Positions 856-39,223 of a stretch of 64,000 nt of DNA are shown here, one piece after another (positions within the stretch are counted from its first letter, which is position 1; each line of letters starts with the position of its first letter). The stretch spans positions 4,543,501 through 4,607,500 of the forward strand of contig NZ_CP089291.1 of the NCBI RefSeq assembly GCF_022818495.1, written 5' to 3'. Source of the stretch: Fodinisporobacter ferrooxydans. Lineage in GTDB: Bacteria; Bacillota; Bacilli; Tumebacillales; MYW30-H2. Under the pieces are notes generated by a model that was not told where the DNA came from, ran no database searches, and saw nothing but the letters and a program-made list of their open reading frames with translations. Position numbers and translations under genes: made by a program.

Positions 856-1759
856 TCAACATAGAGATTCGTTTTGCTGCAAGCATTCCTTGTCCAACGG
901 ACACAGCAATGCTGGAGTCATTGGAATGAACTTGCAGATCACCGATGCAGAAAATACTTTTTATGCTTGATTGGCCATGAAAGTCCACTGTACAATACCC
1001 CTCATGATCCATTTCTACAATCCCTTGCAATAGAATGGAATTGGGTTGTGTGCCAATGCGAACAAGTACTGCATCTGCGGGAATGACCTCCGATCGTATC
1101 GACAAGTCCGGATTGCCGACTTCCACACCATCAATTTTCATCGTACCAAAAATTTTCTGGACGGTTGATTGCGTACGTATCGCAATATGTGAATGATGTG
1201 TAATTTTTTGAATAAATTCATGACGCGCACGAAACTGTTTCGAACGATGAATCAATGTAACAAAAGCTCCTGCGTCTGCAAGCAAACATGCCCCTTCACA
1301 TGCTCTGTCTCCGCCCCCGACAACGACGACATGTTTTCCGCTAAACAATTCCCGATCACGGGTAGCAGAAATCGGTTGGCTCGCCAACAAGTGTGCGCCG
1401 GGAACTTGCAAACGCCTCTCCCTTGCCCCTGTAGCTACTATCAGGTATTGATACGCAATGCTCCCTGCTGTCGTATGTACAACTTGATTCTTGTCATCGA
1501 TCCTGGTTACTTGTCTTTGCAAATACACTTTTGCAAAAGTGGATTGCAAGTGTTTTTGGAACTCTTGTTGCAGCTTTGACCCCGTGGTTGCAGAAAAACC
1601 AGGATAGTCAATCAAATCATTTCTAATATTCACCAATTGACCGCCGATTTTGTCATTTTTTTCGAGAACGATCGTTGAAAGGCCCAATCTTGTACTCCAT
1701 ATCGCTGCTGATATTCCCGCCGGACCAGCCCCTATAATGACTACTTGATGCTGTTGCAT
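830..1759 (-). CDS. Thioredoxin reductase-like FAD/NAD(P)H oxidoreductase without CxxC
   Basis: 309 residues with the thioredoxin-reductase fold: FAD-binding GAGPAG at 11-16, the ATGARERR segment near 109-116, NAD(P)-binding GGGDRA at 148-153, and the C-terminal FAD motif GD near 273. The redox-active CATC pair expected at about 131-137 is replaced by SATRDRE, so it cannot reduce thioredoxin through the usual dithiol. It could instead be a ferredoxin-NADP reductase-like enzyme or a protein passing electrons to another acceptor. A strong AAGGAGGG precedes the ATG. It overlaps the Nudix gene, suggesting co-expression. Confidence 0.85.
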   Translation of the reverse strand: MQQHQVVIIGAGPAGISAAIWSTRLGLSTIVLEKNDKIGGQLVNIRNDLIDYPGFSATTGSKLQQEFQKHLQSTFAKVYLQRQVTRIDDKNQVVHTTAGSIAYQYLIVATGARERRLQVPGAHLLASQPISATRDRELFSGKHVVVVGGGDRACEGACLLADAGAFVTLIHRSKQFRARHEFIQKITHHSHIAIRTQSTVQKIFGTMKIDGVEVGNPDLSIRSEVIPADAVLVRIGTQPNSILLQGIVEMDHEGYCTVDFHGQSSIKSIFCIGDLQVHSNDSSIAVSVGQGMLAAKRISMLIEEEKKRG

Positions 1760-1943
1760 GGCAATCCCTCCTTATAGGCGGCTTGTTTTCTACCATACTG
1801 TGATTCGTCAAACACCCATTGCCAGTCATTTATCTGCCCAATATTTCTATTTATTTGTCTTTTCAATTCTGTCTTTTCTATTCGCCCCAAATTTGTTACA
1901 CTACATTTTATATCTTCTACTATTTTTGAAATGAGGGATTATG

Positions 1944-2222
1944 ATGACAGACAATTCCCATTGGTCAAATGTACATGTACCTGAACAAGCGGCTTTACTA
2001 AAAAAAGAGACATATGAATATACGGTTCGTGAACGCTCATTTGTCATTGAATTGTTTGAACAATCGGACGGAATGTTTTATGCAATCGGCGTGCCAAAAC
2101 ATGAAGAGCGTCTTATTATTTATGGCAGCAATATTGTGGAAAGCAGACCAAAAGCATTGCAACTCGTGATCGACAAAATCGAACGGGAAGCAGGTACTCT
2201 TGATTATTTCAGCGAGTGCTAG
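1944..2222 (+). CDS. Small protein of unknown function
   Basis: A 92-residue soluble acidic protein. Two ATGs stand in tandem at 1941 and 1944; the second is chosen because GAGGG at 1933-1937 then has a 6-nt spacer. I see no known motif. The middle segment (strand-like FVIELFEQ, MFYAIGV, RLIIYGS, followed by a helix KALQLVIDKIEREAG) suggests a small alpha/beta fold. The gene stands alone, divergent from the flavoprotein and convergent with yuiD. Confidence 0.65.
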   Translation: MTDNSHWSNVHVPEQAALLKKETYEYTVRERSFVIELFEQSDGMFYAIGVPKHEERLIIYGSNIVESRPKALQLVIDKIEREAGTLDYFSEC

Positions 2223-2256
2223 CTTGATGCAAGGAAACGCTTTATTCAACAACGGA

Positions 2257-2287
2257 ATTGACGGAAGGCTTGTCCCATTCCGTCAAT
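2257..2287. terminator. Hairpin between convergent genes, probable terminator
   Basis: ATTGACGGAA, an 11-nt loop, and TTCCGTCAAT form a perfect 10-bp stem, followed by CCTCCGCTTTTTA. The T-run is displaced by 6 nt, so termination strength is uncertain, but the position between the stops of the convergent genes at 2222 and 2346 fits. Confidence 0.6.
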
Positions 2288-2345
2288 CCTCCGCTTTTTA
2301 TACCTGGCGCATGATAGAAATTTTAATTTTGAACGATTCTTACAT

Positions 2346-2828
2346 TTACCATAAACGCCATGTAAAAACACCAATGCAAATCCCTAAAATAGCTCCCGCC
2401 AATACTTCCGTGGGCTGATGTCCCAGCATCTCCTTCAGTTGTTTGCTCTTTTTCCAATGAAAATGATGACTGGGACCGCGGGATTCGATATGCTTCTCAA
2501 ACTCGGCCTCCAATTTGTTAATTGCCATCGCCTGCTCTCCTGCATGCCTGCGGATTCCCGCAGCGTCATACATGACGATCATTCCCAGTGTCATTGCAAT
2601 TGCAAACAATGAAGAAGACAATCCATGGCGAAGACCGACTGCAGTGGTTAAGGCCATGACAGATGCGCTGTGAGAGCTCGGCATTCCGCCTGTACTCAAT
2701 ACAGAAGCGATATTCCATTTTCCATGCAACAACTTATGAATGAAAGGTTTCAACCCTTGTGCAATTAAGACACCAAGTAATGCGGCAACCAACGGAAAAT
2801 TAGTAAAAATATTGATAAGAATCCGCAT
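2346..2828 (-). CDS. yuiD: Divergent PAP2 family membrane protein, YuiD-like
   Basis: 160 residues with about four hydrophobic segments and the motif GGMPSSHSASV at 47-57, which is the conserved SxxxSH core of the DUF212/YuiD group of phosphatidic acid phosphatase-like proteins. Length matches the family. It is an integral membrane protein of unproven substrate. The gene follows the radical SAM gene in the same direction, with a possible tiny ORF bridging the two. Confidence 0.85.
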   Translation of the reverse strand: MRILINIFTNFPLVAALLGVLIAQGLKPFIHKLLHGKWNIASVLSTGGMPSSHSASVMALTTAVGLRHGLSSSLFAIAMTLGMIVMYDAAGIRRHAGEQAMAINKLEAEFEKHIESRGPSHHFHWKKSKQLKEMLGHQPTEVLAGAILGICIGVFTWRLW

Positions 2829-2931
2829 GGCACTCTCTCCTCTTATGATCAGAGATCAGATCGTAGTAGTAATGTATCGCTAGTTTTTCTAATGCAGGAT
2901 CATTTGGATCTGTCAAAATACGACTGTCCAT
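2800..2931 (-). CDS. Possible 43-residue small protein between the radical SAM gene and yuiD
   Basis: An ATG at 2931 lies inside the 3' end of the radical SAM gene in another frame and opens a 43-codon frame beginning MDSRILTDPNDPALEKLAIH. It ends inside the start of yuiD. The overlaps with both neighbours would fit translational coupling, and the composition is protein-like. No family is recognised, and the upstream AGGGAC is 12 nt away, so this is tentative. Confidence 0.3.
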   Translation of the reverse strand: MDSRILTDPNDPALEKLAIHYYYDLISDHKRRECHADSYQYFY

Positions 2932-4730
2932 ATTTTCTGTCCCTGTTTATCAAAAGGATATAATACAACAAAGTGTTGTTGATTCGATATCAGAACGATC
3001 CGTTTATGCTCAAGCCACTGTTTTACGTCAAATGGCAATAAACCGACCCAGGCATGTTTCAATACGTGTTCCGTTGCATATAAGGATGGATCCCCTATCC
3101 TTTCGTCTTTCATGTTTTGAAGCTGCTTGCTTACATGGGAAGCCCTTTGATATTGCTCTTGCCGACTGGTCATCGGCTCCCAAGGAATATGCCTGGGCCG
3201 ATGATTGGCATGCATCACGTAGTCCAATTGCATCAAGCCGGAAACAACGGAAAGATTCAAGTTCACAAGATTTTCTTCAGCACGGTTTGACTCTGCATCG
3301 GCAAGTTGTTTGGCATGTTTTAAAAATTCCAATAGCCTTGAAAATAAATCCTCATATTGATGACCCAATCGCTGCCAGCCATTTGCCTCCCAAAAATCCC
3401 CAAATGCTTGAAAGAAATCAAAGGGAGAGGAATAGATTTGATCGACCAAATAGGTTACAGTATGGTCCATTTTATGATCATTCCAGAATTTCTCAAGAAT
3501 ATCTTCCAAACGTTTCAGTCGGATCATATCGGAATAGGATAATACGTCATTTCCCAAAATTTCATAAGGAGCGTGTTCCATATACTGATACCCATACTGT
3601 TTTGCTTGATGACGCATTCCCGTACCGCGCAACATTTTTAGAAACCCTAACTGCAATTCATCCGGCTGCAATGCAAACACATCATTAAATGTCTTCCGAA
3701 ATGAATGATAGTCCTCATGTGGCAGCCCGGCAATTAGATCGAGGTGCTGGACAATTTTTTTCGAATCCCGAATAATGGAAACCGTACGGGCAAGCTTTTC
3801 AAAATTTTGATGTCGCTTCACTGCATGATTGGAAAGATCATTGGTGGACTGTACGCCAATCTCAAAACGAAACAAATCGGGAGGCGCTTCTGCAGCAAGA
3901 AATTCCAATACTTCCGGCCGCATGATATCAGCAGTGATTTCAAAATGAAAGGTGGTGTTTTTATGATATCCAATTAAAAACTTGAATATCTCCATTGCAT
4001 ATTCTTTATTAATGTTGAATGTGCGATCGACAAATTTTATCTGTTTCACACCAAAATCGATCAATCGCCGCAAATCTCGCTTAATGCGATCTAAAGAAAA
4101 ATAGCGTACACCTTCTTCGATCGAAGACAGGCAAAATTGGCAGCGAAACGGACATCCGCGGCTGGCTTCAAAATACACGATACGATTGCGAAGCTCCTCC
4201 AAATGCGTTTCATAAGGACTTGGAATGGCATCCAACGCAGCGATTTTATCACTCGGAAACGTGGAATGAATGCTTCCTTCCATCGATCGATAGTAAATCC
4301 CCCGCACATCTCTTACATCCGCCAACCGCGGTTGCTGCTTTGACTCCGAACAGCTTTGCAAGATTTGATAAAAAGTGGCTTCTCCCTCCCCTTGTGCAAT
4401 GCAGTCGACCACAGGAAGCCGCTCCATCCAATATCGAGTATCATATGATACCTCGGGTCCGCCCAATACGATAAACGCATTTGGCAATACCTTTCGCAAC
4501 ATGTCAAGAACGGGAACGGTCTGTTCGATGTTCCATATATAGCAGGAAAAACCAATGACGTCCGGCTTTTCCTGATAAATCTTACTCACAATATTCATCG
4601 GTACATCATGAATGGTGAATTCAAGTAACGATGTATCCGGAAAATCCGCTTCCACTTGACTGCGCAGATATCGCAATGCCAATGATGCATGTATAAACTT
4701 CGCATTTAATGTTGCAAGAACGACTTTCAT
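2913..4730 (-). CDS. B12-binding domain radical SAM protein (DUF4080 type)
   Basis: 605 residues. The N-terminal 130 residues form a cobalamin-binding-like Rossmann domain (MKVVLATLNAKFIHASLALRYL, GFSCYIWN, VLGGPEVSYD). The radical SAM cluster motif C193-x3-C197-x2-C200 (CPFRCQFC) follows, then a TIM-barrel region with GLPHEDYHSF. The C-terminal 150 residues resemble the DUF4080 extension. Such proteins probably carry out radical methylation or rearrangement of an unknown substrate. It stands upstream of yuiD on the same strand and is divergent from yunC. Confidence 0.85.
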   Translation of the reverse strand: MKVVLATLNAKFIHASLALRYLRSQVEADFPDTSLLEFTIHDVPMNIVSKIYQEKPDVIGFSCYIWNIEQTVPVLDMLRKVLPNAFIVLGGPEVSYDTRYWMERLPVVDCIAQGEGEATFYQILQSCSESKQQPRLADVRDVRGIYYRSMEGSIHSTFPSDKIAALDAIPSPYETHLEELRNRIVYFEASRGCPFRCQFCLSSIEEGVRYFSLDRIKRDLRRLIDFGVKQIKFVDRTFNINKEYAMEIFKFLIGYHKNTTFHFEITADIMRPEVLEFLAAEAPPDLFRFEIGVQSTNDLSNHAVKRHQNFEKLARTVSIIRDSKKIVQHLDLIAGLPHEDYHSFRKTFNDVFALQPDELQLGFLKMLRGTGMRHQAKQYGYQYMEHAPYEILGNDVLSYSDMIRLKRLEDILEKFWNDHKMDHTVTYLVDQIYSSPFDFFQAFGDFWEANGWQRLGHQYEDLFSRLLEFLKHAKQLADAESNRAEENLVNLNLSVVSGLMQLDYVMHANHRPRHIPWEPMTSRQEQYQRASHVSKQLQNMKDERIGDPSLYATEHVLKHAWVGLLPFDVKQWLEHKRIVLISNQQHFVVLYPFDKQGQKIWTVVF

Positions 4731-4907
4731 AAAAAACTCCTTGTTTTATGGATTCCTGCTTTACACGATCCTGACACTTGACAAGCAAAAACAACTCACT
4801 TCTGTGTCAATTCACAAATCTTAGGTAAAAAACATAGTTTGTTATGTGGAACGATTCATTCGTACGGTTCTCAAATCCCTTACTTTAAGATTACAGGAGG
4901 AATCCAT

Positions 4908-5219
4908 ATGGTGCAAATGTTTCCGGTGCAAATTGAGGATAAAACAGCAATTGCTGTTTCTGTTGCACTTCCAAAAACAAATCTGCTTGTAGTCTCCACA
5001 GAGATTGGATATATCATGTGCGGTGCATTGGATGTACAACTACTCAATGACAAATTGGCAGACCGCAAAATTATTGCCGGTCGTGCCGTTGGCGTAAAAA
5101 CCATCGAGCAGCTCTTGTCAGCACCTCTTGAATCTGTGACAGCAGAAGCTGAAACGATTGGAATACATTCAGGCACGACTGGCCATGATGCCATAAAAAT
5201 CATGCTCGAACATGCTTGA
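4908..5219 (+). CDS. yunC: YunC-like DUF1805 protein
   Basis: 103 residues. The ATG at 4908 is chosen over the upstream frame opening because ACAGGAGG at 4893-4900 is correctly spaced before it. The sequence matches Bacillus YunC (DUF1805): the VALPKTNLLVVSTEIGYIMCGALDV core, then GRAVGVKTIEQLL. The function of the family is unknown. It is monocistronic and divergent from the radical SAM gene, and is followed at once by an AAACTTGAATC repeat. Confidence 0.8.
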   Translation: MVQMFPVQIEDKTAIAVSVALPKTNLLVVSTEIGYIMCGALDVQLLNDKLADRKIIAGRAVGVKTIEQLLSAPLESVTAEAETIGIHSGTTGHDAIKIMLEHA

Positions 5220-5226
5220 TAAAGTA

Positions 5227-5265
5227 AAACTTGAATCAGGTGAGTTTTTACTCCATTGCAAAAAA
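5227..5265 (+). repeat. Short intergenic repeat, AAACTTGAATC family, copy 2
   Basis: AAACTTGAATCAGGTG, then GAGTTTTTACTC, then CATTGCAAAAAA. It shares word order with 199-240, with single-base losses in the hairpin. It begins 7 nt after the yunC stop codon. Confidence 0.7.
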
Positions 5266-5283
5266 CGACCATCTCAACAGTAT

Positions 5284-5314
5284 AAAAAAAGCGGACAAAG
5301 GAAATTGTCCGCTT
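5284..5314 (-). terminator. Rho-independent terminator of the GT2 gene
   Basis: Read leftward, AAGCGGACAA, a 6-nt loop, and TTGTCCGCTT are followed by a run of T (the AAAAAAA at 5284-5290 on the plus strand). It lies about 100 nt past the stop of the glycosyltransferase. Confidence 0.85.
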
Positions 5315-5415
5315 CTCCTGCAACAAAAGTTGTAACTTGGCAACTTACAATAAACGAATCAACTTAAAAAAGTGGATCAATTTTTACCAATTCTCATTCG
5401 GGTTTTAAACATCCA

Positions 5416-6666
5416 TTAATTGCGAATTCGCAAATCTTCTACACGAATCGCTCTTGTATGAAGCGTATGACTCCAAACCCTGTTGTTTTTTGTAACATAC
5501 GCTTTTGCCGTTACCGGTATCCAGGTTAATGCAAACAACGGGAAAATCAATATCCCGATATATGCTTTCCAACTGACTCGCTCCAACATTAACGCATATG
5601 GAATTTGGATATACATGCCAATATTTACTGCAATCCAGAACCAAGCGGGCAAAAGCTTCGATAAATGCGTAAAGTGCCAGAAATCCGGGATTGCCACTTG
5701 AAATAACAGCAATATGGACGTAAAGAATATCAGAAGAAATCGCATCGGCTGGAACAAATACAGCGCAGCGTCCAATTTTGCCAAATTGCGTTCTTTGATA
5801 CTCTTTGTGAGCAAAGGCCACATGAATTTGCTTGCACAGCTAAAATGTCCTTGCATCCAACGCAATCGTTGACGCATGGACGCCCGCAAGGAAACCGGCT
5901 TTTCGTCAAACACCTTTGCGGAGTGCACCCATGTCGGATAAATTCCTCTCTGCACACAGCGTACGCCAAACTCCAAATCTTCTGTAAGGCTTGTTGCGCC
6001 CCAGCCGATTTCTTTCAACAATTGCATATCAATGCACAGTCCGGTACCACCCAACGCACAAGACAAGCCCATATTATACCTTGCCAATTGCCACATCCGA
6101 TTGGTAAACCAATAGGATATTGCCATGGAAATACTCACCCAGGAATCGTAAGGATTTTTTATATCGAGATACCCCTGCATCACTTTTTTTCCTTGGCAAA
6201 GCTTCTCGTTCATCTCGGTCAGGAAGTTTGGAGCCGCCAGATTGTCGGCATCGAACATAACCACGGCATCATACTCTTTTTCGCCTTCCCATAACCGCTC
6301 CAGCATCCATTCAATGCCATAGCCTTTGCCTTTCTTCTCTTCGTCAAACCGCTCGCACGCAATCGCTCCATGCTCACGGGAAACTTTGGCCGTACCATCC
6401 GAACAATTGTCACAAATTACATATATGTCATACAGTTCTTTCGGGTAATCCATCTGTTTTAAATTGTCAATTAAATAACCAACCACTTGTTCTTCATTGT
6501 GTGCCGCAATCAACACTGCAAAACGTTTTTGTGGCGCGTATTGAATCACTTCTTTCTTGCGGTACAATCCAAATGCGGATAAAACGACCTGGTATGCACC
6601 GATCGCTGCAATACCGCCTTGCAGCGTCAGAAAAGCGCCATCGAAAATACTTTGCAACATACTCAT
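5416..6666 (-). CDS. Processive-type family 2 glycosyltransferase, membrane bound
   Basis: 416 residues. The ATG at 6666 is preferred to the TTG at 6675 because GGGGGA then has a 9-nt spacer. A first membrane segment (8-32) precedes a GT-A domain with NEEQ, DAD (about 139-141), TED (about 228) and QRLRW (about 266-270). This is the D,D,D,QxxRW pattern of cellulose or hyaluronan synthase-like enzymes. Three further membrane segments follow (about 300-395). It probably polymerises or transfers a sugar at the inner membrane face; donor and product cannot be read. It is a single-gene unit ended by the terminator at 5284-5314. Confidence 0.85.
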   Translation of the reverse strand: MSMLQSIFDGAFLTLQGGIAAIGAYQVVLSAFGLYRKKEVIQYAPQKRFAVLIAAHNEEQVVGYLIDNLKQMDYPKELYDIYVICDNCSDGTAKVSREHGAIACERFDEEKKGKGYGIEWMLERLWEGEKEYDAVVMFDADNLAAPNFLTEMNEKLCQGKKVMQGYLDIKNPYDSWVSISMAISYWFTNRMWQLARYNMGLSCALGGTGLCIDMQLLKEIGWGATSLTEDLEFGVRCVQRGIYPTWVHSAKVFDEKPVSLRASMRQRLRWMQGHFSCASKFMWPLLTKSIKERNLAKLDAALYLFQPMRFLLIFFTSILLLFQVAIPDFWHFTHLSKLLPAWFWIAVNIGMYIQIPYALMLERVSWKAYIGILIFPLFALTWIPVTAKAYVTKNNRVWSHTLHTRAIRVEDLRIRN

Positions 6667-6930
6667 GGAATACAATCCCCCGTTTGTTATGCAAACTTAT
6701 TCAAGTTTGATCCGGTTTCGATTATTTACACTACCATTCATTTTCCAACTTCGCACATTGCCTGTCAATGCTTTCTTTAAACACTTGCGAAAGCTGGAAA
6801 ACTCAGGATACTCTAATTAAGCATTTCTACACTATACCATGGTGAAATGCAAAATACAAATGTTAATATTTTCATGAATCAGTGACGCTTGTCACTTGGT
6901 GCAGGGGCGGGCATGATTACACATCCATGT

Positions 6931-8193
6931 TTATGCCTCCAATTTAAGAATTCTCGTCAGCAGCTTTTCTCCTTCCGAACGTTCCACCAATAGATCCTTG
7001 GGATAGTACATTCGATTTTCTGTGCGAGGCGTCAAAGATCGAATGACCGGAGAAATTTCGGCAATATCCTGACAATGATTGTTTTCATCGCAGCAATAAA
7101 TTCCTTGCCGATATAAATATCCATCTGTCGTTGTTTGCCGAAATTCCAGATAGGATGCCGGATCAATCCCCAACTTTTGAAAGGATTCCATAAATTCACA
7201 CATTTGTTCATGTGAAATGTTTTTATAAGAAATGGACTTGAATAACCTGCGGGTCAACAAGCGATCGGAAAGATCGCGCAAAATCGGATCTTCTTCTTTT
7301 GCCCAACGCCGAACGATGGAAAGAAGCATGACATCATCCAACTGCATATATTCATCCACTGGCATCTCCGCTACTTGATCGGCAAAAAGCCACACCAATT
7401 CCGCCGGTATGTAGGAAAGCACCTGATTTTGATAGCAATCTGTCGCACGCTGCAAAATTTTTTCGATCAATACGTCCGCACCAATTGTAACTTTGTGCTG
7501 ATACACTTGTGAGTACATAAAATAACGAGCCAATAAATATTGCTCGACCGTATGTATGCCGCTTGCTTTCACAACGACCATATTCTCTGCGGGACGCATC
7601 ACCCGAATCAAACGTTCCAGTTCGAATTTCCCGTATATCACTCCCGTTGCTGTCGCATCCCTTAGCAGATAATCCATTCGATCCACGTCCAATTGGCTGG
7701 ATATCAGTTGATGCAGGATCGGATACTCCGACTCTTTTCGCAACACCCGTACCACATCGAAGGCAAATGCATCGTCCATTTGTGAAAAAATCTGTTGCAA
7801 TTCCGCATCTTCCAAAAGAATCCGCGCTGTCCAGGATTCATGGTGACAGCGGAAACAACGTTCAAATGTATGGGAAAACGGCCCATGTCCAATATCATGC
7901 AATAACGCCGCAGATAATGCAAGTTTCTCCAAACGCTCATCCGGATTCCAGCCATGATTGCGCTTGAAGTGGGAAATCACTTGGCGCATGGTGTCATAGG
8001 TGCCTAAAGAATGAGCAAACCGGCTATGTTCGGCACCGTGAAATGTAAGATAGGACGTACCCAGTTGTTTGATAAATCGCAATCGCTGCATTGCTTTCGT
8101 ATTGATTAAATCCCATATAAATCGATCTTTGACATATAAATAATCATGCACAGGGTCTTTAAACACTTTCTCTTCCATGAATGATCCCGACAT
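6931..8193 (-). CDS. HD domain phosphohydrolase, YwfO-like
   Basis: 421 residues from the ATG at 8193 (GGAG at 8203-8206, 9-nt spacer). A longer frame exists upstream but would cover the divergent gene at 8294. The family opening KVFKDPVHDYL is followed by HSRFAHSLG and LLHDIGHGPFSH, the H...HD metal-binding pattern, and SSQLDVDRMDYLLRD, typical of SAMHD1/dGTPase-like bacterial proteins such as Bacillus YwfO. It likely hydrolyses nucleotide phosphates; the substrate is not shown by sequence. Confidence 0.85.
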   Translation of the reverse strand: MSGSFMEEKVFKDPVHDYLYVKDRFIWDLINTKAMQRLRFIKQLGTSYLTFHGAEHSRFAHSLGTYDTMRQVISHFKRNHGWNPDERLEKLALSAALLHDIGHGPFSHTFERCFRCHHESWTARILLEDAELQQIFSQMDDAFAFDVVRVLRKESEYPILHQLISSQLDVDRMDYLLRDATATGVIYGKFELERLIRVMRPAENMVVVKASGIHTVEQYLLARYFMYSQVYQHKVTIGADVLIEKILQRATDCYQNQVLSYIPAELVWLFADQVAEMPVDEYMQLDDVMLLSIVRRWAKEEDPILRDLSDRLLTRRLFKSISYKNISHEQMCEFMESFQKLGIDPASYLEFRQTTTDGYLYRQGIYCCDENNHCQDIAEISPVIRSLTPRTENRMYYPKDLLVERSEGEKLLTRILKLEA

Positions 8194-8293
8194 CCAATCA
8201 CGCTCCGAAAGCTGATATTTTTTTCCGATTGTCGTATAATATTGCTGGTACTGAGATCTTACTGATGATTTTATGAATAAAGGAGTCTCGGAC

Positions 8294-8746
8294 ATGCAAG
8301 AAAAATTAAACCGTTTGCAAGAAATGTTTTCCCGCTTATCCGCCGCACAGCAGGATGATATAATAAACTTGCTGGAAACGTGGATAAAGCAACAACAAGT
8401 GATAAAGGAAGCTCCAACCAGACAACCGTCAATCGATTCTGGCCACACGTCCGCCCTTCAATACTATCATCACCCTTCCCTCGATCAACAGCGGCAATCT
8501 GTAAACATACTGCGGAACTATGTCCGTGACCATTTCCGGCCTATGATCGAGTTGGCGTACATTGCATTTCATCCCGACCTGGACAGCATCAGCACTGCAA
8601 AATCCCGTGCGGCTGTCGAGAACATGTTTGAATTGGAAGCGGCGTATGAATTGAAATCGATTTTGGAAACCCAGCCTGATTCTTCCATTATATCAAAACA
8701 ATTGATAGATACATTTCAGGAATCAAACAAAAAAAATTCTAAGTAA
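8294..8746 (+). CDS. Hypothetical protein with helical N terminus
   Basis: 150 residues from the ATG at 8294, chosen because AAAGGAG stands 8 nt before it; an upstream ATG at 8273 has no ribosome binding site. A TATAAT at 8235-8240 may be the -10 element. The protein is soluble and largely helical (QEKLNRLQEMFSRLSAAQQDDIINLLETWI; later RAAVENMFELEAAYELKSILE). No known domain is recognised. It is divergent from the HD hydrolase. A 24-bp tandem duplication covers its stop codon. Confidence 0.6.
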   Translation: MQEKLNRLQEMFSRLSAAQQDDIINLLETWIKQQQVIKEAPTRQPSIDSGHTSALQYYHHPSLDQQRQSVNILRNYVRDHFRPMIELAYIAFHPDLDSISTAKSRAAVENMFELEAAYELKSILETQPDSSIISKQLIDTFQESNKKNSK

Positions 8747-34426: not shown

Positions 34427-35392
34427 ATGGAACATGCATCAACCCCTTTGGAAATCGGAAATCAAATTTGGGAAATTGATTTATTGGAACAAAATCAGCC
34501 TGGCAGGACAGCGGGCTTTATCTTGCGGGATTCCTTGAATGTCATAATCGAGACAGGCTCCAGCCGATCCATCGGGCAAATCATTCAAGGCTTGCACGCA
34601 TTGAATATCCCGAGAGATGAGCTGAACTACATCATCGTCACACACATCCACCTCGATCATGCAGGAGGCGCAGGGACATTAGCCAAACTTTGCCCGAATG
34701 CCAAAATTGTGGTGCATCCCCGCGGTGCTCGCCATCTGATTGACCCATCACGCCTGATATCCGGTGCAAAAGCCGTCTATGGAGATCTCCTGGAGGAATA
34801 TTTCGGACAAATTCTCGCCGTACCGGAAGATCGCGTGCTTGTGATGAATGATGGTGATACACTGACATTAGGCGCCAATCGAACATTGACATTTCTTGAT
34901 ACGCCAGGACATGCCAAACATCATTTTTCCATTTTTGACTCGCTGACAAAATCCATGTTTACAGGTGATACGACTGGCATTCGCTATGTACATGCATATA
35001 CCGGATGGAATTTTGAATTTGTTCTCCCGACAACATCGCCGTCCGATTTTGATCCGCAGGCTGTACACGCTTCGATTGCAAAAATGAAGCAGTTCCCCGT
35101 TCAAAGGATCATACATACACATTTCGGTTCCAGCCCGGACCCGGAAGACGTTTATCAGACGATTGACCATGCGGCTGATGCATTTGCTGCGATCGCTGAA
35201 GAGTATTATACGGAAGGCATGGATTGGACGATCATGGCCGGTCACTTGGAACAATGGATCCGCCGACATTTGCAATCCCTCGGGCATTCGGTGGATGATC
35301 TGTCGCCGCTCGCGCTCGATCTCGAAGTCAACAGCAAGGGCCTGATCTATTATGTTGAAAAAAAGCGTAAGGAAAGCGGCAAATCAAACTAA
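34427..35392 (+). CDS. Metallo-beta-lactamase fold hydrolase
   Basis: 321 residues. The HxHxDH motif is at 73-78 (THIHLDHAGG), followed by a later His in TPGHAKHHFS and an Asp in FTGDTTG, giving the usual binuclear zinc site. The protein is cytosolic. It belongs to the broad YflN/YtnP-like group; the substrate may be a lactone or thioester but is not readable. Its ribosome binding site (AGGA, short spacing) is modest. It ends in a strong terminator and is therefore separate from the SGNH gene. Confidence 0.8.
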   Translation: MEHASTPLEIGNQIWEIDLLEQNQPGRTAGFILRDSLNVIIETGSSRSIGQIIQGLHALNIPRDELNYIIVTHIHLDHAGGAGTLAKLCPNAKIVVHPRGARHLIDPSRLISGAKAVYGDLLEEYFGQILAVPEDRVLVMNDGDTLTLGANRTLTFLDTPGHAKHHFSIFDSLTKSMFTGDTTGIRYVHAYTGWNFEFVLPTTSPSDFDPQAVHASIAKMKQFPVQRIIHTHFGSSPDPEDVYQTIDHAADAFAAIAEEYYTEGMDWTIMAGHLEQWIRRHLQSLGHSVDDLSPLALDLEVNSKGLIYYVEKKRKESGKSN

Positions 35393-35490
35393 ATGGCCCA
35401 AAATAAAGGCCTGTTTCTTCCATGTACGGATCGGACTTTTTTAAACATCCGGTTCAAACGTCTGAATGATGAAACACATGTATAGACTGG

Positions 35491-35524
35491 AGGTATTCCG
35501 TTGTCCTCACGGAATACCTCTTTT
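35491..35524 (+). terminator. Rho-independent terminator after the metallo-hydrolase
   Basis: AGGTATTCCGT, a 7-nt loop, ACGGAATACCT, then CTTTT. It separates the metallo-hydrolase from the SGNH-MBOAT run. Confidence 0.88.
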
Positions 35525-35553
35525 GCACAATTTGTTGTCAGCAGGTGAATGCA

Positions 35554-36657
35554 TTGAAAAATTTCATTGCCATGTGTATCGGCTTAGTCTGTACACTTTT
35601 GGCCATAAACGCTTGGGCGGGAACCTTCGCCCCGCCAATCCCGCCATCCAAACGATTGATTATGGATGACACATTTTACGATCAAAATACACAACTGGAT
35701 CACGTTCTTGCATCCATTCGCAGGGACAAAGGGATACGCATCGTCGGAATCGGCGACAGCACCATGTATGGCGCCATCGTTCATGCCAATCAAACAATCC
35801 CTTACTATCTGCAACAAACGCTGCAGGCCAAAGACAAGAATCAAACCATTCACGTCTATAATCTGGCCTTTCCAGGGGCACGGCCTGCCGATCTGTATGC
35901 CATGCTGAAGCGTGTGAAAGCAGCAAAACCCGATCTGATCTTTATCGATGTAAATATCGTATTTTTTTCAGACAAAGTATTGCATGAGGCTGCATTGGCC
36001 AACAAAATGTTCAAACGGGAGTTTTTGTTTGCACATGATGTTCCAAACGGGATTTTTACGGAGAATCGGTTGGAGGAAATTGTCACAACATTGGTGAAAG
36101 ATACAAATATCGGCCAATACAAAAAAGAAATCAATGAAAAACTATTTGGCAAAGCCCCCCGGCTGTATGTCCAGGATTGGGCGCATGCGGTGCAGACAGG
36201 TGAGCCTGTAAAGACAGCAAATCCGCAAACAACTGCTTCGGCACAGCAGAATCCGCTCATCGGCAAAAGTTGGCGGCAGCGTGTCTGGGATGCGAAAGAG
36301 CAGCAAGTGATGGCCAGAATTTACGCACAAGGTCCGATCCCTGGCGCGAACGACAGTGTCATGATGTTGCGGGATATGATCCGGTATGCAAGAGCAAACC
36401 ATTTAAACACGGTATTCTATCTCACACCGCAAAATGAAACGTTGATCGGCAAGTTTTTCTCATTGCCCCAATTGCATCAAAATGAAGACTATCTCATTCA
36501 TATCATGCAGCAAGAAGGCGCATGGATGGTGGATTTGCGGCATGCTGTCCCAGCCGATGACTTTGGCGATTACGATCATATGTTAAGTGCCGGCAATCGA
36601 TTGATTGCACAACATTTAGCAGATGTGATCAGCCGCAAAGGAGGGATTTCACGTTGA
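35554..36657 (+). CDS. Membrane-anchored SGNH-type acyltransferase (DltD/AlgX-like role)
   Basis: 367 residues from the TTG at 35554, where AGGTGA gives a 5-nt spacer (an in-frame GTG at 35545 is the alternative). A signal-anchor (about 1-23) exports the rest. GIGDSTMYG near 65-73 carries the SGNH nucleophile serine, and DYDH near 340 supplies the Asp/His. Such proteins receive an acyl group and pass it to an envelope polymer. The stop overlaps the start of the MBOAT gene by 4 nt, showing tight coupling. Confidence 0.75.
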   Translation: MKNFIAMCIGLVCTLLAINAWAGTFAPPIPPSKRLIMDDTFYDQNTQLDHVLASIRRDKGIRIVGIGDSTMYGAIVHANQTIPYYLQQTLQAKDKNQTIHVYNLAFPGARPADLYAMLKRVKAAKPDLIFIDVNIVFFSDKVLHEAALANKMFKREFLFAHDVPNGIFTENRLEEIVTTLVKDTNIGQYKKEINEKLFGKAPRLYVQDWAHAVQTGEPVKTANPQTTASAQQNPLIGKSWRQRVWDAKEQQVMARIYAQGPIPGANDSVMMLRDMIRYARANHLNTVFYLTPQNETLIGKFFSLPQLHQNEDYLIHIMQQEGAWMVDLRHAVPADDFGDYDHMLSAGNRLIAQHLADVISRKGGISR

Positions 36658-37817
36658 TTTTTACAACGTATACCTTCCTGGTGTTTTTTCTTGCACTATT
36701 GCTCGTGTACGCTTTGACACCCCGCCCATTGCGGAAATATGTCATGATTGTCGGCGGATTTGTCTTCTATGCGTATGACAGCATCGGGCACTTTTTCTTC
36801 CTGCTTGCACTCACTTGTGTCGTATATGTGATTTCGTTATCCGAGAAACGTCCGATCCTGTTGTATGGAATTTGTGTTCCTGTAGGCTTTCTTTTGTATT
36901 ATAAATACTGGAAAATGGCTGTAAGTACATGGAATTCTGTATTTGCCGGGTGGTTCTCCGCCACGCTGCCGGCTGTTCACATTGCGGTTCCTTTGGCGAT
37001 TTCCTTTTTTGTTTTTGAATTTGTACATTACCTGGCAGACGTATACAAAGGAAAAACGGAGCGGGTATCTTTCAGTGAATTCTTCCTGTTTATCTTTTTC
37101 TTCCCGTCACTCGTAGCAGGGCCGATCAAGCGGATCCAGTCGTTCTCAAAAGAAAAATTCTTATTCTCTTTTGAACATGTACAGAAAGGCATGATCCGCA
37201 TGGGGATCGGGTTATTTAAAAAAATTGTCCTGGCTGATTCACTCAATCCCTTGTTTATGCCTGTATTTGATGACCCGCACAAGTATCCGCCGGATGCTTT
37301 ATGGGTCGCCATGTATGCATACGCCTTTAAAATTTACTTTGATTTTTCCGCGTATTCCGATATTGCGATTGGCGCTGCACAGTGTTTCGGCTTTCATCTG
37401 CCGGAAAATTTCAATTGGCCCTATATCTCCCGCAACCTGGTGGAATTTTGGCGTCGCTGGCATATTTCCCTGTCAACCTGGATCCGGGATTATTTATATA
37501 TCCCCATGGGCGGCAATCGCAAAGGATATCTGAACATGCTGCTGTTTATCTTCCTTGCGATGACCATTTCCGGGCTGTGGCACGGAGCCAATTGGACGTT
37601 TGTGATTTGGGGCATGTGGCATGGCATCGGACAAGTCATCAATAAGATCTGGAACAAATGGCGGCAAGAACGGACGTTTGTGCCGAAACCATTGTATGAG
37701 TTTCTAAGTTGGGGCCTGACTTTCCAATTTGTCTGTTTTGGTTGGATCTTTTTTGCCAGTCCGACCATTCACAATTCCATCGTATTCTTCGTACGGATGT
37801 GGGGGATTCATGCATGA
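36654..37817 (+). CDS. MBOAT family O-acyltransferase (AlgI/DltB/PatA type)
   Basis: 387 residues from a TTG, preceded by AAAGGAGG. About ten membrane segments. The MBOAT signatures are present: FVHYLADVYKGK, RNLVEFWRRWHISLSTWIRDYLYIPMGG, and the catalytic H310 in SGLWHGANW, with a second conserved His at 323. It moves an acyl group across the membrane to the export side. It ends in FVRMWGIHA and lacks the C-terminal aromatic hexapeptide that fused MBOATs carry. That motif is on the next gene, whose ATG overlaps this stop codon. Confidence 0.85.
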   Translation: MIFTTYTFLVFFLALLLVYALTPRPLRKYVMIVGGFVFYAYDSIGHFFFLLALTCVVYVISLSEKRPILLYGICVPVGFLLYYKYWKMAVSTWNSVFAGWFSATLPAVHIAVPLAISFFVFEFVHYLADVYKGKTERVSFSEFFLFIFFFPSLVAGPIKRIQSFSKEKFLFSFEHVQKGMIRMGIGLFKKIVLADSLNPLFMPVFDDPHKYPPDALWVAMYAYAFKIYFDFSAYSDIAIGAAQCFGFHLPENFNWPYISRNLVEFWRRWHISLSTWIRDYLYIPMGGNRKGYLNMLLFIFLAMTISGLWHGANWTFVIWGMWHGIGQVINKIWNKWRQERTFVPKPLYEFLSWGLTFQFVCFGWIFFASPTIHNSIVFFVRMWGIHA

Positions 37818-37918
37818 TGCGATCGTTTTTTTGGGGAATGTTTCTCGCTTTGTTGCTTGTCGCCGTGTATCTCGTAGCAGTCGGCCCAAGCGGTCGTTTT
37901 ATCTATACGGATTTTTAA
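37814..37918 (+). CDS. 34-residue transmembrane microprotein ending FIYTDF, DltX-like
   Basis: The frame starts at the ATG overlapping the MBOAT stop (ATGA) and ends at 37918. It reads as one membrane helix (FFWGMFLALLLVAVYLVAV), a short polar link and the C-terminal end GRFIYTDF. DltX, the microprotein of the D-alanylation complex, ends in FIYNEF, and work on that system showed the tyrosine to be the acyl acceptor. The match in length, topology and last six residues makes this a candidate acyl shuttle. No dltA or dltC is nearby, so the acyl group need not be D-alanine. It could also be the split-off tail of a formerly fused MBOAT. Confidence 0.75.
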   Translation: MMRSFFWGMFLALLLVAVYLVAVGPSGRFIYTDF

Positions 37919-37938
37919 ATATGGAGGTGACTCTGCAC

Positions 37939-38109
37939 ATGACAGTGATTGCTGCAGACGATTTGGAATTGCCTTGTTGGGATTGTCATGGAACCGGGCA
38001 ATTGCAAGAAAATGAACAGACAATTCCTTGTCCGAAATGTTCCGGAAAAGGCTATATCCCGACTGCGCTAGGCCAGACGATTTTGGAATTTGTCAAACGG
38101 CATCTTTGA
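37939..38109 (+). CDS. rtpA: Anti-TRAP (AT)-like zinc protein
   Basis: 56 residues from the ATG at 37939 behind GGAGGTG (9-nt spacer). Two CxxC pairs (C13/C16, C31/C34) in CWDCHGTG and CPKCSGKG make a DnaJ-like zinc module. The ends match Bacillus anti-TRAP: VIAADDLE at the start and TALGQTILEFVKRHL at the end. AT binds the TRAP ring and blocks its RNA binding, raising trp operon expression when tRNA-Trp is uncharged. Here it follows the microprotein by 20 nt with no terminator between, an unexpected place for it. Confidence 0.75.
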   Translation: MTVIAADDLELPCWDCHGTGQLQENEQTIPCPKCSGKGYIPTALGQTILEFVKRHL

Positions 38110-38160
38110 TTTTCAAAGGTTTCTTAAGAATGCTTACATAAAGTAGAGTACCTTCGGGGA

Positions 38161-38271
38161 GGTGTGATTACACATGCAAAACGCGAGTTTGTCGATCGTC
38201 TTGCGACCGCTGCGAATTAATCAAGCAAGACGATCGATGCCTGTTTGAGCGACTGCATGTGTAATCACGCC
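38161..38271. repeat. Long two-part inverted repeat (about 110 bp)
   Basis: The outer arms GGTGTGATTACACATGCA (38161-38178) and TGCATGTGTAATCACGCC (38254-38271) pair at 17 of 18 positions. The inner arms TCGATCGTCTTGC (38192-38204) and GCAAGACGATCGA (38225-38237) pair perfectly around a 20-nt loop. There is no T-run, so it is not an ordinary terminator. It lies between the convergent rtpA-like and thpR genes, 50 nt from either. It may be a structured 3' RNA or a non-autonomous palindromic element. Confidence 0.8.
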
Positions 38272-38304
38272 TGACCTCGGCACTCGGTGACAAACCTCAC
38301 GGGT

Positions 38305-38880
38305 TCAGGCCATTGATAAATCAAACGCCGCCCGAATCGGATACTGTACGCCATTTGGCGTCGATACCGATTCAAAGCGGTCGATTTGCGTGACACGCCA
38401 GCGATAGGAAGGAGACAATCGCTGATCCAGTTGTGCGATTTGCTCACTGATTTCCTGAAATTCCTGCTTCGTCGGGACTTTTTTCAGACGCCCTAATGTG
38501 ATATGTGGCGTCAGTCTGGGCCGAGCCCCTTTTTCACAATCTGCCACCTTGAGAATGGGCCAGAGCTTTTGGTACAAATGCTGCAAAACGGAAAGTTCTC
38601 CCTGTACTCCTGCCCATACCACTTTTGCCCGTTCAAACATGCCAATGGAATGCAAGCTCAGTGTAAATGGGGAAAATTCCTGTACGACTGCAGCACAGAT
38701 GTTGTCAATTTCCCTTAATTGTTCATCCGTTTGATTGCCCAGAAAATGAATCGTAATATGAAAATGTTCTTTGTTATACCAGCGTTTTGCATCAATATAC
38801 GGTTGCACGTGCTGAATCCATTGTTCCAGTGCATTCCCCGGTTCCGGCGCAATACGTACGCCAATAAATGTTCGAGTCAT
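38305..38880 (-). CDS. thpR: RNA 2',3'-cyclic phosphodiesterase (LigT/ThpR)
   Basis: 191 residues from the ATG at 38880 behind AAAGGGA. Two HxTx motifs of the 2H phosphoesterase family are seen: HITIHFLG at about 41 and HITLGR near 125. Such enzymes open 2',3'-cyclic phosphates at RNA ends. The length is normal. It is monocistronic, ending against the long palindrome. Confidence 0.88.
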   Translation of the reverse strand: MTRTFIGVRIAPEPGNALEQWIQHVQPYIDAKRWYNKEHFHITIHFLGNQTDEQLREIDNICAAVVQEFSPFTLSLHSIGMFERAKVVWAGVQGELSVLQHLYQKLWPILKVADCEKGARPRLTPHITLGRLKKVPTKQEFQEISEQIAQLDQRLSPSYRWRVTQIDRFESVSTPNGVQYPIRAAFDLSMA

Positions 38881-39223
38881 GTGCCGTCCCTTTCTTACTT
38901 TGGAATATATGGTATAAAACGTATCTGCCCTTATTCGATGTCCAAAACGAGTCAAACATTTTATTTAAGCCCTGTATCGCTCGTTCATCCACTCCATGTC
39001 AATGCGGAAACCCTCTGTTCAGGCACTATGGTTTCCCAATACATACATACGATACAGTTACATTGTACTCGAATCATAGAGGTCACGTTGTTTCAACGCT
39101 TGTTACATTTTACTGCCCGTTCCCCTTGATGCATCCCAAAATATATTTTCCAAATAGTTCTATATTTATCACCCATTCAAAAAGAATGGATTCGATTTGC
39201 AGTGTTATGACATCGACGATGAG
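38881..39223. other. Non-coding stretch between thpR and the KS/kinase pair
   Basis: About 340 nt with no frame I can support on either strand and no hairpin terminator for the kinase gene that ends at 39224. It should hold the thpR promoter, but I see no convincing -35/-10 pair. Confidence 0.5.

Follow-up and report, generated by a model that had tools for sequence, protein, structure and literature searches.

How would a membrane acyltransferase reach its extracellular partner when the peptide expected to carry the acyl group is encoded by a gene of its own and no donor genes stand beside it? The question is raised by a three-gene cassette in the window analysed here, a 64,000-nucleotide stretch of the Fodinisporobacter ferrooxydans chromosome (NZ_CP089291.1, positions 4,543,501 to 4,607,500). 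On its plus strand lie, in series, a gene for an SGNH/GDSL-type protein with an N-terminal membrane anchor, probably an acyltransferase acting on a polymer (35554-36657; PF13472, with Ser, Asp and His kept), a gene for a 387-residue MBOAT without a fused shuttle tail (36654-37817; PF03062, with H270, H310 and an LGG-type loop at 283-289), and a gene for a DltX-like microprotein with one hydrophobic helix and the C-terminal sequence FIYTDF, a putative acyl-shuttle motif containing Tyr31 (37814-37918). Both joints are 4-nt overlaps, the first (36654-36657) joining the SGNH stop to the MBOAT start and the second (37814-37817) the MBOAT stop to the microprotein start. The original prediction had described this coupling, an MBOAT lacking the motif, a separate single-helix protein of 34 residues bearing it, and no adjoining gene for a D-alanine ligase or carrier (dltA, dltC); the open reading frames (ORFs) and their coordinates bear out each of these points. 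By the features tested, the cassette falls within the MBOAT and SGNH superfamilies and is neither a Dlt nor a tail-fused system. It is likely to be a self-contained transmembrane O-acyltransferase, probably driven by acetyl-CoA, with a surface polymer as target and a DltX-like shuttle. The evidence lies in how the genes are arranged and conserved, in the selection acting on the microprotein, in catalytic residues that do not vary, in a changed MBOAT loop, in the lack of DltA and DltC over cut-off in 26/27 genomes with such a system, and in the position of the MBOAT in trees.

The split architecture is a family, not a single case. The closest relatives by MBOAT are G007, G008 and G010 (about 70% identity) and G003 (48%); the conserved 3' microprotein that had been proposed as a check was found in all four, directly downstream of the MBOAT gene. 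Within the order, an MBOAT match turns up in 7 of the 14 genomes; it is split in five (the window genome and these four) and fused in two (G006 and G011). The class sample has such matches in 174 of 398 genomes. Among the matches listed above 150 bits, 12 MBOATs have an open frame shorter than 450 residues, and 11 of them are accompanied by a separate microprotein: those of the window, the four close relatives, G032, G160, G106, G337, G171 and G393. In the twelfth, G337:C28, the tail is fused. Every short MBOAT among these matches that is neither Dlt nor fused (11/11) has a microprotein, and its presence there is not a product of search selection. A first microprotein profile matched 232 of 398 class genomes at E<=1, nearly all by chance, and the 10 matches at E<=0.0012 were used. 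A profile of ten microproteins then matched 29 of 398 phylum genomes at E<=0.01, of which G000 and 18 others were inspected and 10 weak ones left out; the 18 loci include 16 with the trio, one with a fused MBOAT (L208) and one without an MBOAT match (L209). The trio occurs in 26 sampled genomes from 14 family codes of the phylum, with the order SGNH-MBOAT-microprotein in 24 and MBOAT-microprotein-SGNH in 2; a more distant variant, G393, with the order MBOAT-SGNH-microprotein, brings the number to 27. Across ten class loci compared, the SGNH gene is the sole other gene common to all, and the flanks differ save among close kin. Among the nearest 80 of 590 candidate named loci, the motif is fused to the MBOAT in 78, and contig ends truncate the other two (L020 and L073). 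On account of the fused motif we take these 80 to be PatA/AlgI-type, with no functionally known PatA or AlgI in the comparison. A further dlt locus, L166, was left out of the counts.

The microprotein, MMRSFFWGMFLALLLVAVYLVAVGPSGRFIYTDF, has 34 residues and ends in RFIYTDF. It is under purifying selection in the four closest genomes (window, G007, G008 and G010), with ratios of non-synonymous to synonymous differences (pN/pS) of 0.06-0.32, and the last six codons show only synonymous differences in the eight FIYTDF genomes compared. Over the 27 loci the last six residues read FIYTDF (14), FIYNQF (4), FIYQNF (2) and FIYTNF (2), or, once each, FIYNNF, FIYSRF, FIYRQF, FIYRGF and FIYMNF. The F-I-Y and the final F are kept in 27/27 while the rest of the helix varies, a constancy partly due to selection, since the microproteins were sought by a pattern or profile that included the motif and the script required F[IVL]Y..F ends. 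The window microprotein has no Pfam or NCBIfam family over cut-off and no match to DltX (PF12459), which 3 of the ten microproteins match weakly at E<=1 (best 0.00022). Compared profile to profile, the ten microproteins match nine DltX proteins with a probability of 91.7 and E 7.9e-07.

The MBOAT starts at a TTG, ends in RMWGIHA and matches PF03062 with 90.7 bits (cut-off 27), which places it in the superfamily. Its best NCBIfam match is the DltB model TIGR04091, at 186.6 bits and below the cut-off of 375; the DltB of the genome's own dlt operon scores 477.4. As had been predicted, the protein carries H310, whose counterpart in S. thermophilus DltB, in columns counted by hand, is the catalytic H336; H310 is conserved, together with H270, P284, G286 and G287, in 27/27 split MBOATs. 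The structure model is confident (predicted local distance difference test, pLDDT, 93.1) and resembles DltB chains best among PDB entries (template modelling score, TM, 0.76-0.77), followed by HHAT and PORCN, with DGAT1 also among the fold matches. Its last helices span 345-368 and, a short one, 372-382. Plasmid records matching the MBOAT number 122, all below 60% identity.

Two known kinds of system invite comparison. Like Dlt (DltB, DltX and DltD with DltA and DltC), the cassette combines an MBOAT of the DltB fold with an anchored SGNH-type protein and a separate one-helix microprotein ending in F-x-Y-x-x-F, the last being a Dlt feature; unlike Dlt, it has no DltA or DltC alongside, its SGNH protein and microprotein match neither DltD nor DltX, and the carrier-docking residues of its MBOAT are replaced. 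With the tail-fused systems (PatA/PatB, AlgI-type, WssH/CcsH and PatA1/PatB1) it shares the MBOAT-SGNH pair, the type of hexapeptide and, in most of them, the LGG-type loop, and its MBOAT is 33-40% identical to 59 aligned relatives, nearly all tail-fused; their motif is fused to the MBOAT C-terminus, whereas here it has its own ORF. The description of PatA in PMC12148441 places after the core one helix leading in and one leading out that carries the motif. The window MBOAT has neither of these two extra C-terminal helices of the tail-fused type, as judged from its length and model, and the microprotein has one. Split MBOATs measure 381-434 residues, whereas 78 fused ones average 475, a deficit larger than the motif itself. 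From the PatA description the MBOAT core would end outside the cell, in which case a direct fusion of MBOAT and microprotein would be expected to fail without a linking helix. OatA, an AT3-SGNH fusion with a published relay of acyl-tyrosine from the membrane domain to the SGNH serine (described in PMC12148441), is set apart by description, having another membrane fold within a single fused protein.

For the SGNH protein the longest ORF begins at GTG 35545, and the alternative start TTG 35554, the one used in the original prediction, agrees with the start of the G007 protein (MKKLLAMC...). The match to PF13472 is 33.5 bits (cut-off 32.9), and 22 of 26 relatives match this family at E<=0.01. The superfamily features are present, a block I Ser and a block V Asp-x-x-His: S69, D339 and H342, numbered from TTG 35554, are invariant in 26/26 aligned relatives, and the G393 protein retains Ser, Asp and His too. 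The window protein has no match to DltD (PF04914) at E<=1, and 6 of the 26 relatives match it at E<=0.01 (best 1.4e-07). A profile of the 26 proteins found GDSL-type proteins in the PDB and PatB only at E 0.087. A single-sequence structure model was poor (mean pLDDT 37.7).

The genome, a single contig of 4.86 Mb, contains two MBOAT matches, each exceeding the Pfam cut-off. The second sits in a full dlt operon elsewhere in the chromosome (L003, 4116-8526: dltC-dltX-dltA-dltB-dltD, carrier gene first), in which DltA, DltB, DltC and DltD exceed their NCBIfam cut-offs and DltX, ending in FIYDGF, exceeds that of PF12459; the window cassette is distinct from this system. The L003 DltB (6091-7302) reads W-N where 10 other DltB-type proteins read W-H (DltB H289, by hand count). 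DltA (TIGR01734) and DltC (TIGR01688) are each over cut-off in 1/27 split-system genomes, that of the window, and neither is in the other 26. As controls, B. subtilis and L. lactis exceeded the cut-off of the DltC model, and 2/14 control genomes that of the DltA model; below cut-off, DltC-like matches occur in G007, G010 and G393, and the DltA model matches many proteins of the nonribosomal peptide synthetase type. The G672 genome is only 61% complete.

The MBOAT itself differs where a carrier protein would dock. A passage of PMC11035591 has DltC contacting Met302, Val305, Ile306 and Met309 in helix HC of DltB; in hand-counted columns these align with I283, G286, a gap and G287 of the window MBOAT, so the docking residues are replaced. 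An LGG-type loop after RDY is found here in 27/27 split MBOATs, 79/80 of the nearest named loci, 13/20 fused class proteins and 0/11 DltB-type proteins. It is a feature found in this comparison, distinct from any published definition of tail-fused MBOATs, and, not being universal among fused forms, a correlate and not a law.

Trees were built from the core only (372 columns, tail left out) and are unrooted; they draw on 33 of the 80 named loci plus 20 class loci with fused MBOATs. In the 74-row tree, without L085 and L171, support is 100/100 for DltB, 96/86 for the split forms and 99/95 for the fused forms as one side of a branch; in the 90-row tree, which also omits G393, the values are 100/100, 82/68 and 99/97, respectively, and 79% of bootstrap trees unite the split forms. 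When the long rows (L171 and G393) were kept, a quick tree gave Shimodaira-Hasegawa-like approximate likelihood ratio (SH-aLRT) values of 99 for DltB, 90 for fused and 85 for split. The fused MBOATs occupy one side of the branch and DltB with the split forms the other, so one change of architecture suffices; as the trees are unrooted, they do not give its direction. A single split clade is moderately supported. The idea of an intermediate architecture in the original prediction gains from the tree (99/97), the replaced DltC-docking loop and the 26/27 genomes without DltA or DltC. At L208 (G423, reverse strand, oriented 3792-5213), a fused MBOAT of 473 residues ends in a tail, TKGTESGFIYAQF, that resembles the split microproteins, a candidate fusion event; L208 groups with the fused forms in the group counts of the quick and 90-row trees.

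How, then, would the cassette work? Most likely it combines DltX shuttling with PatA-type donor use. PatA, a tail-fused relative by type, was shown to acetylate the tyrosine of its own fused tail from acetyl-CoA (PMC12148441), from which we infer acetyl-CoA as the donor here. By analogy with DltX and PatA, the MBOAT would accept an acyl group (acetyl being the likeliest) at the inner face and use H310 to pass it on to Tyr31, which sits in the FIYTDF tail of a microprotein whose C-terminus would lie outside. The tail would bring the acyl-tyrosine to the catalytic serine of the anchored SGNH protein, which would transfer the acyl group to a polymer hydroxyl at the cell surface, a wall or secondary-wall polysaccharide being the likeliest target. 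Flanking genes give a weak pointer to a wall-linked polysaccharide. Genes of PF04230 pyruvyl transferases, which we take to be csaB-like, lie on the other strand 2.2-3.4 kb from the cassette in three genomes of one genus code (G007, G008 and G010), and in G495 they immediately precede it on its own strand; a PF00953 protein, presumably WecA/TagO-like, is near the cassette in G032, and glycosyltransferases are near it in G003 and G672. This test covered ten flanking proteins chosen by eye; the PF04230 family is present in 25/27 genomes, and in that of the window it is far from the cassette. In G003 (L099) near-identical glycosyltransferase genes at 3523-4674 and 7396-8643 flank the cassette, with the same start by eye and in one BLAST cluster.

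Several points weigh against this account. The evidence on the family comes from sequence and structure prediction, and the likeness of the SGNH protein to DltD or PatB is weak. The spread is patchy, with a split MBOAT in 5/14 genomes of the order and no MBOAT match in G009, which shares its genus code with three split genomes. The LGG loop is no strict marker, missing as it is in 7/20 fused class proteins and in L021. The motif belonged to the pattern and profile by which microproteins were sought. Finally, the window genome has DltA and DltC, so D-alanyl-DltC may be the donor there.

The alternative that survives best keeps the architecture and changes the cargo: an acyl group other than acetyl (succinyl, lactyl or longer) would be drawn from CoA or another carrier protein. 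The MBOAT superfamily handles many acyl chains, HHAT, PORCN and DGAT1 are among the fold matches of the model, the sequence does not fix the acyl group, and a micro-type system in G010 adjoins an acyl carrier protein (ACP). Against this, the bacterial MBOAT-SGNH pairs of CoA type that have been characterised, as named in a passage of PMC12148441, acetylate, and no acyl-activating gene adjoins the window cassette; we consider a non-acetyl cargo unlikely. Somewhat less likely still is a second DltB-DltX-DltD set, in which the MBOAT would use D-alanine from the DltC of the operon and D-alanylate a second polymer. DltA and DltC over cut-off in the same genome, the separate microprotein and the preference for DltB among NCBIfam and PDB matches would all suit it; the score far below the DltB cut-off, the replaced docking residues, the lack of both proteins in 26/27 comparable genomes and the separation of the MBOAT from 11 DltB-type proteins (including a second copy that adjoins a dlt operon) argue for a different donor. 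That the microprotein serves as a structural or regulatory subunit with an acyl-free tyrosine is distinctly improbable: a 2024 study of DltB does call the role of DltX in D-alanylation unclear and proposes regulation, in a passage of PMC11035591, but the tyrosine of the PatA motif carries acetyl and DltX is described as a D-alanine carrier in part of PMC12148441, and F-I-Y and the final F persist, partly by search selection, while the helix varies. A frameshifted or stop-split tail of a fused MBOAT, or a read-through product, is rejected with hardly any residual probability: although the microprotein is in the MBOAT frame behind an intervening stop in 10/27 loci (G007 and G008 included), all three frames are used (10/9/8), so that neither a frameshift, the doubt raised at the outset, nor read-through explains it, and the short split MBOATs and the purifying selection on the separate ORF agree with this.

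Other acyl systems were met in the relatives. In G010 a second microprotein-type system, an apparent operon (L171, G010:C13:78500-88500, 1378-5465, plus strand), holds genes for an ACP (PF00550, 47.8 bits), a ligase relative, a GNAT, an SGNH-like protein, a 39-residue microprotein ending in FIYEGF and an MBOAT below the DltB cut-off and without the LGG loop. The ligase relative, a 400-residue protein resembling class II aminoacyl-tRNA synthetases, matches the amino acid--[acyl-carrier-protein] ligase 3mey (E 9.8e-25) and the type-2 serine--tRNA ligase 3w3s (E 1.1e-24) in the PDB, with NCBIfam matches below cut-off. The SGNH-like motifs were seen by eye, with no Pfam match. The locus, seen once, may encode a pathway of the Dlt kind whose ligase is unrelated to DltA. 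A search for its type of SGNH protein in 299 phylum genomes found none and, with no known-match control genome, is uninformative; relatives of its ligase-like protein occur in 12/396 class genomes, and the 11 others have no MBOAT match within about 5 kb on either side. In G129 (L170, 4749-7697) genes named by eye as dltB-like and dltD-like, with a microprotein ending in FIYSEF, directly precede dltX (FIYNEF) and a dltA-like gene: next to a dlt operon stands a second BDX set. Lipoprotein N-acetylation was also considered and dropped, because the PcrB, YvoF and LhaT pathway, as outlined in a passage of PMC12345273, has no MBOAT/SGNH pair.

The surroundings of the window cassette are of other kinds. 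The next gene, 20 nt past the microprotein, is anti-TRAP-like (37939-38109; PF15777, 81.8 bits), and none lies 3' of the cassette in G007; the 5' neighbours encode proteins of the MBL-fold and FtsW/RodA types. A strong long hairpin at 38160-38275 (151 nt folded, -66.6 kcal/mol, z -5.65, 0/200 shuffles) separates the anti-TRAP-like gene from a gene at 38305-38955. An inverted-repeat scan of 35300-38300 found two short palindromes.

A 2025 account of non-Dlt MBOAT/SGNH pathways states, in a passage of PMC12148441, that a DltX-like microprotein is absent from them and that their motif is fused to the MBOAT itself; against that statement, the split family is a many-membered exception. Among the open-licence papers listed, covered by titles and the starts of abstracts, none reports a separate shuttle in a non-Dlt system; subscription papers fell mostly outside this scope, and an earlier description is possible. 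As the microprotein has no family over cut-off, routine annotation likely overlooks its 34-residue gene. It is conceivable, though we would put it somewhat below an even chance, that these cassettes form a third class of MBOAT-SGNH system, spread over at least 14 family codes, driven by CoA like PatA and served by a detachable DltX-like shuttle; the detachable state would then be the older one, the fused PatA/AlgI tails would have been derived once, and the donor module would be exchangeable, G010 being the example with its micro-type MBOAT next to an ACP and a relative of class-II-synthetase-like amino acid:[carrier protein] ligases. The split family would uncouple the carrier-protein donor from the detachable shuttle, and with it the origin of the fused tail and the donor choice of bacterial MBOATs become testable.

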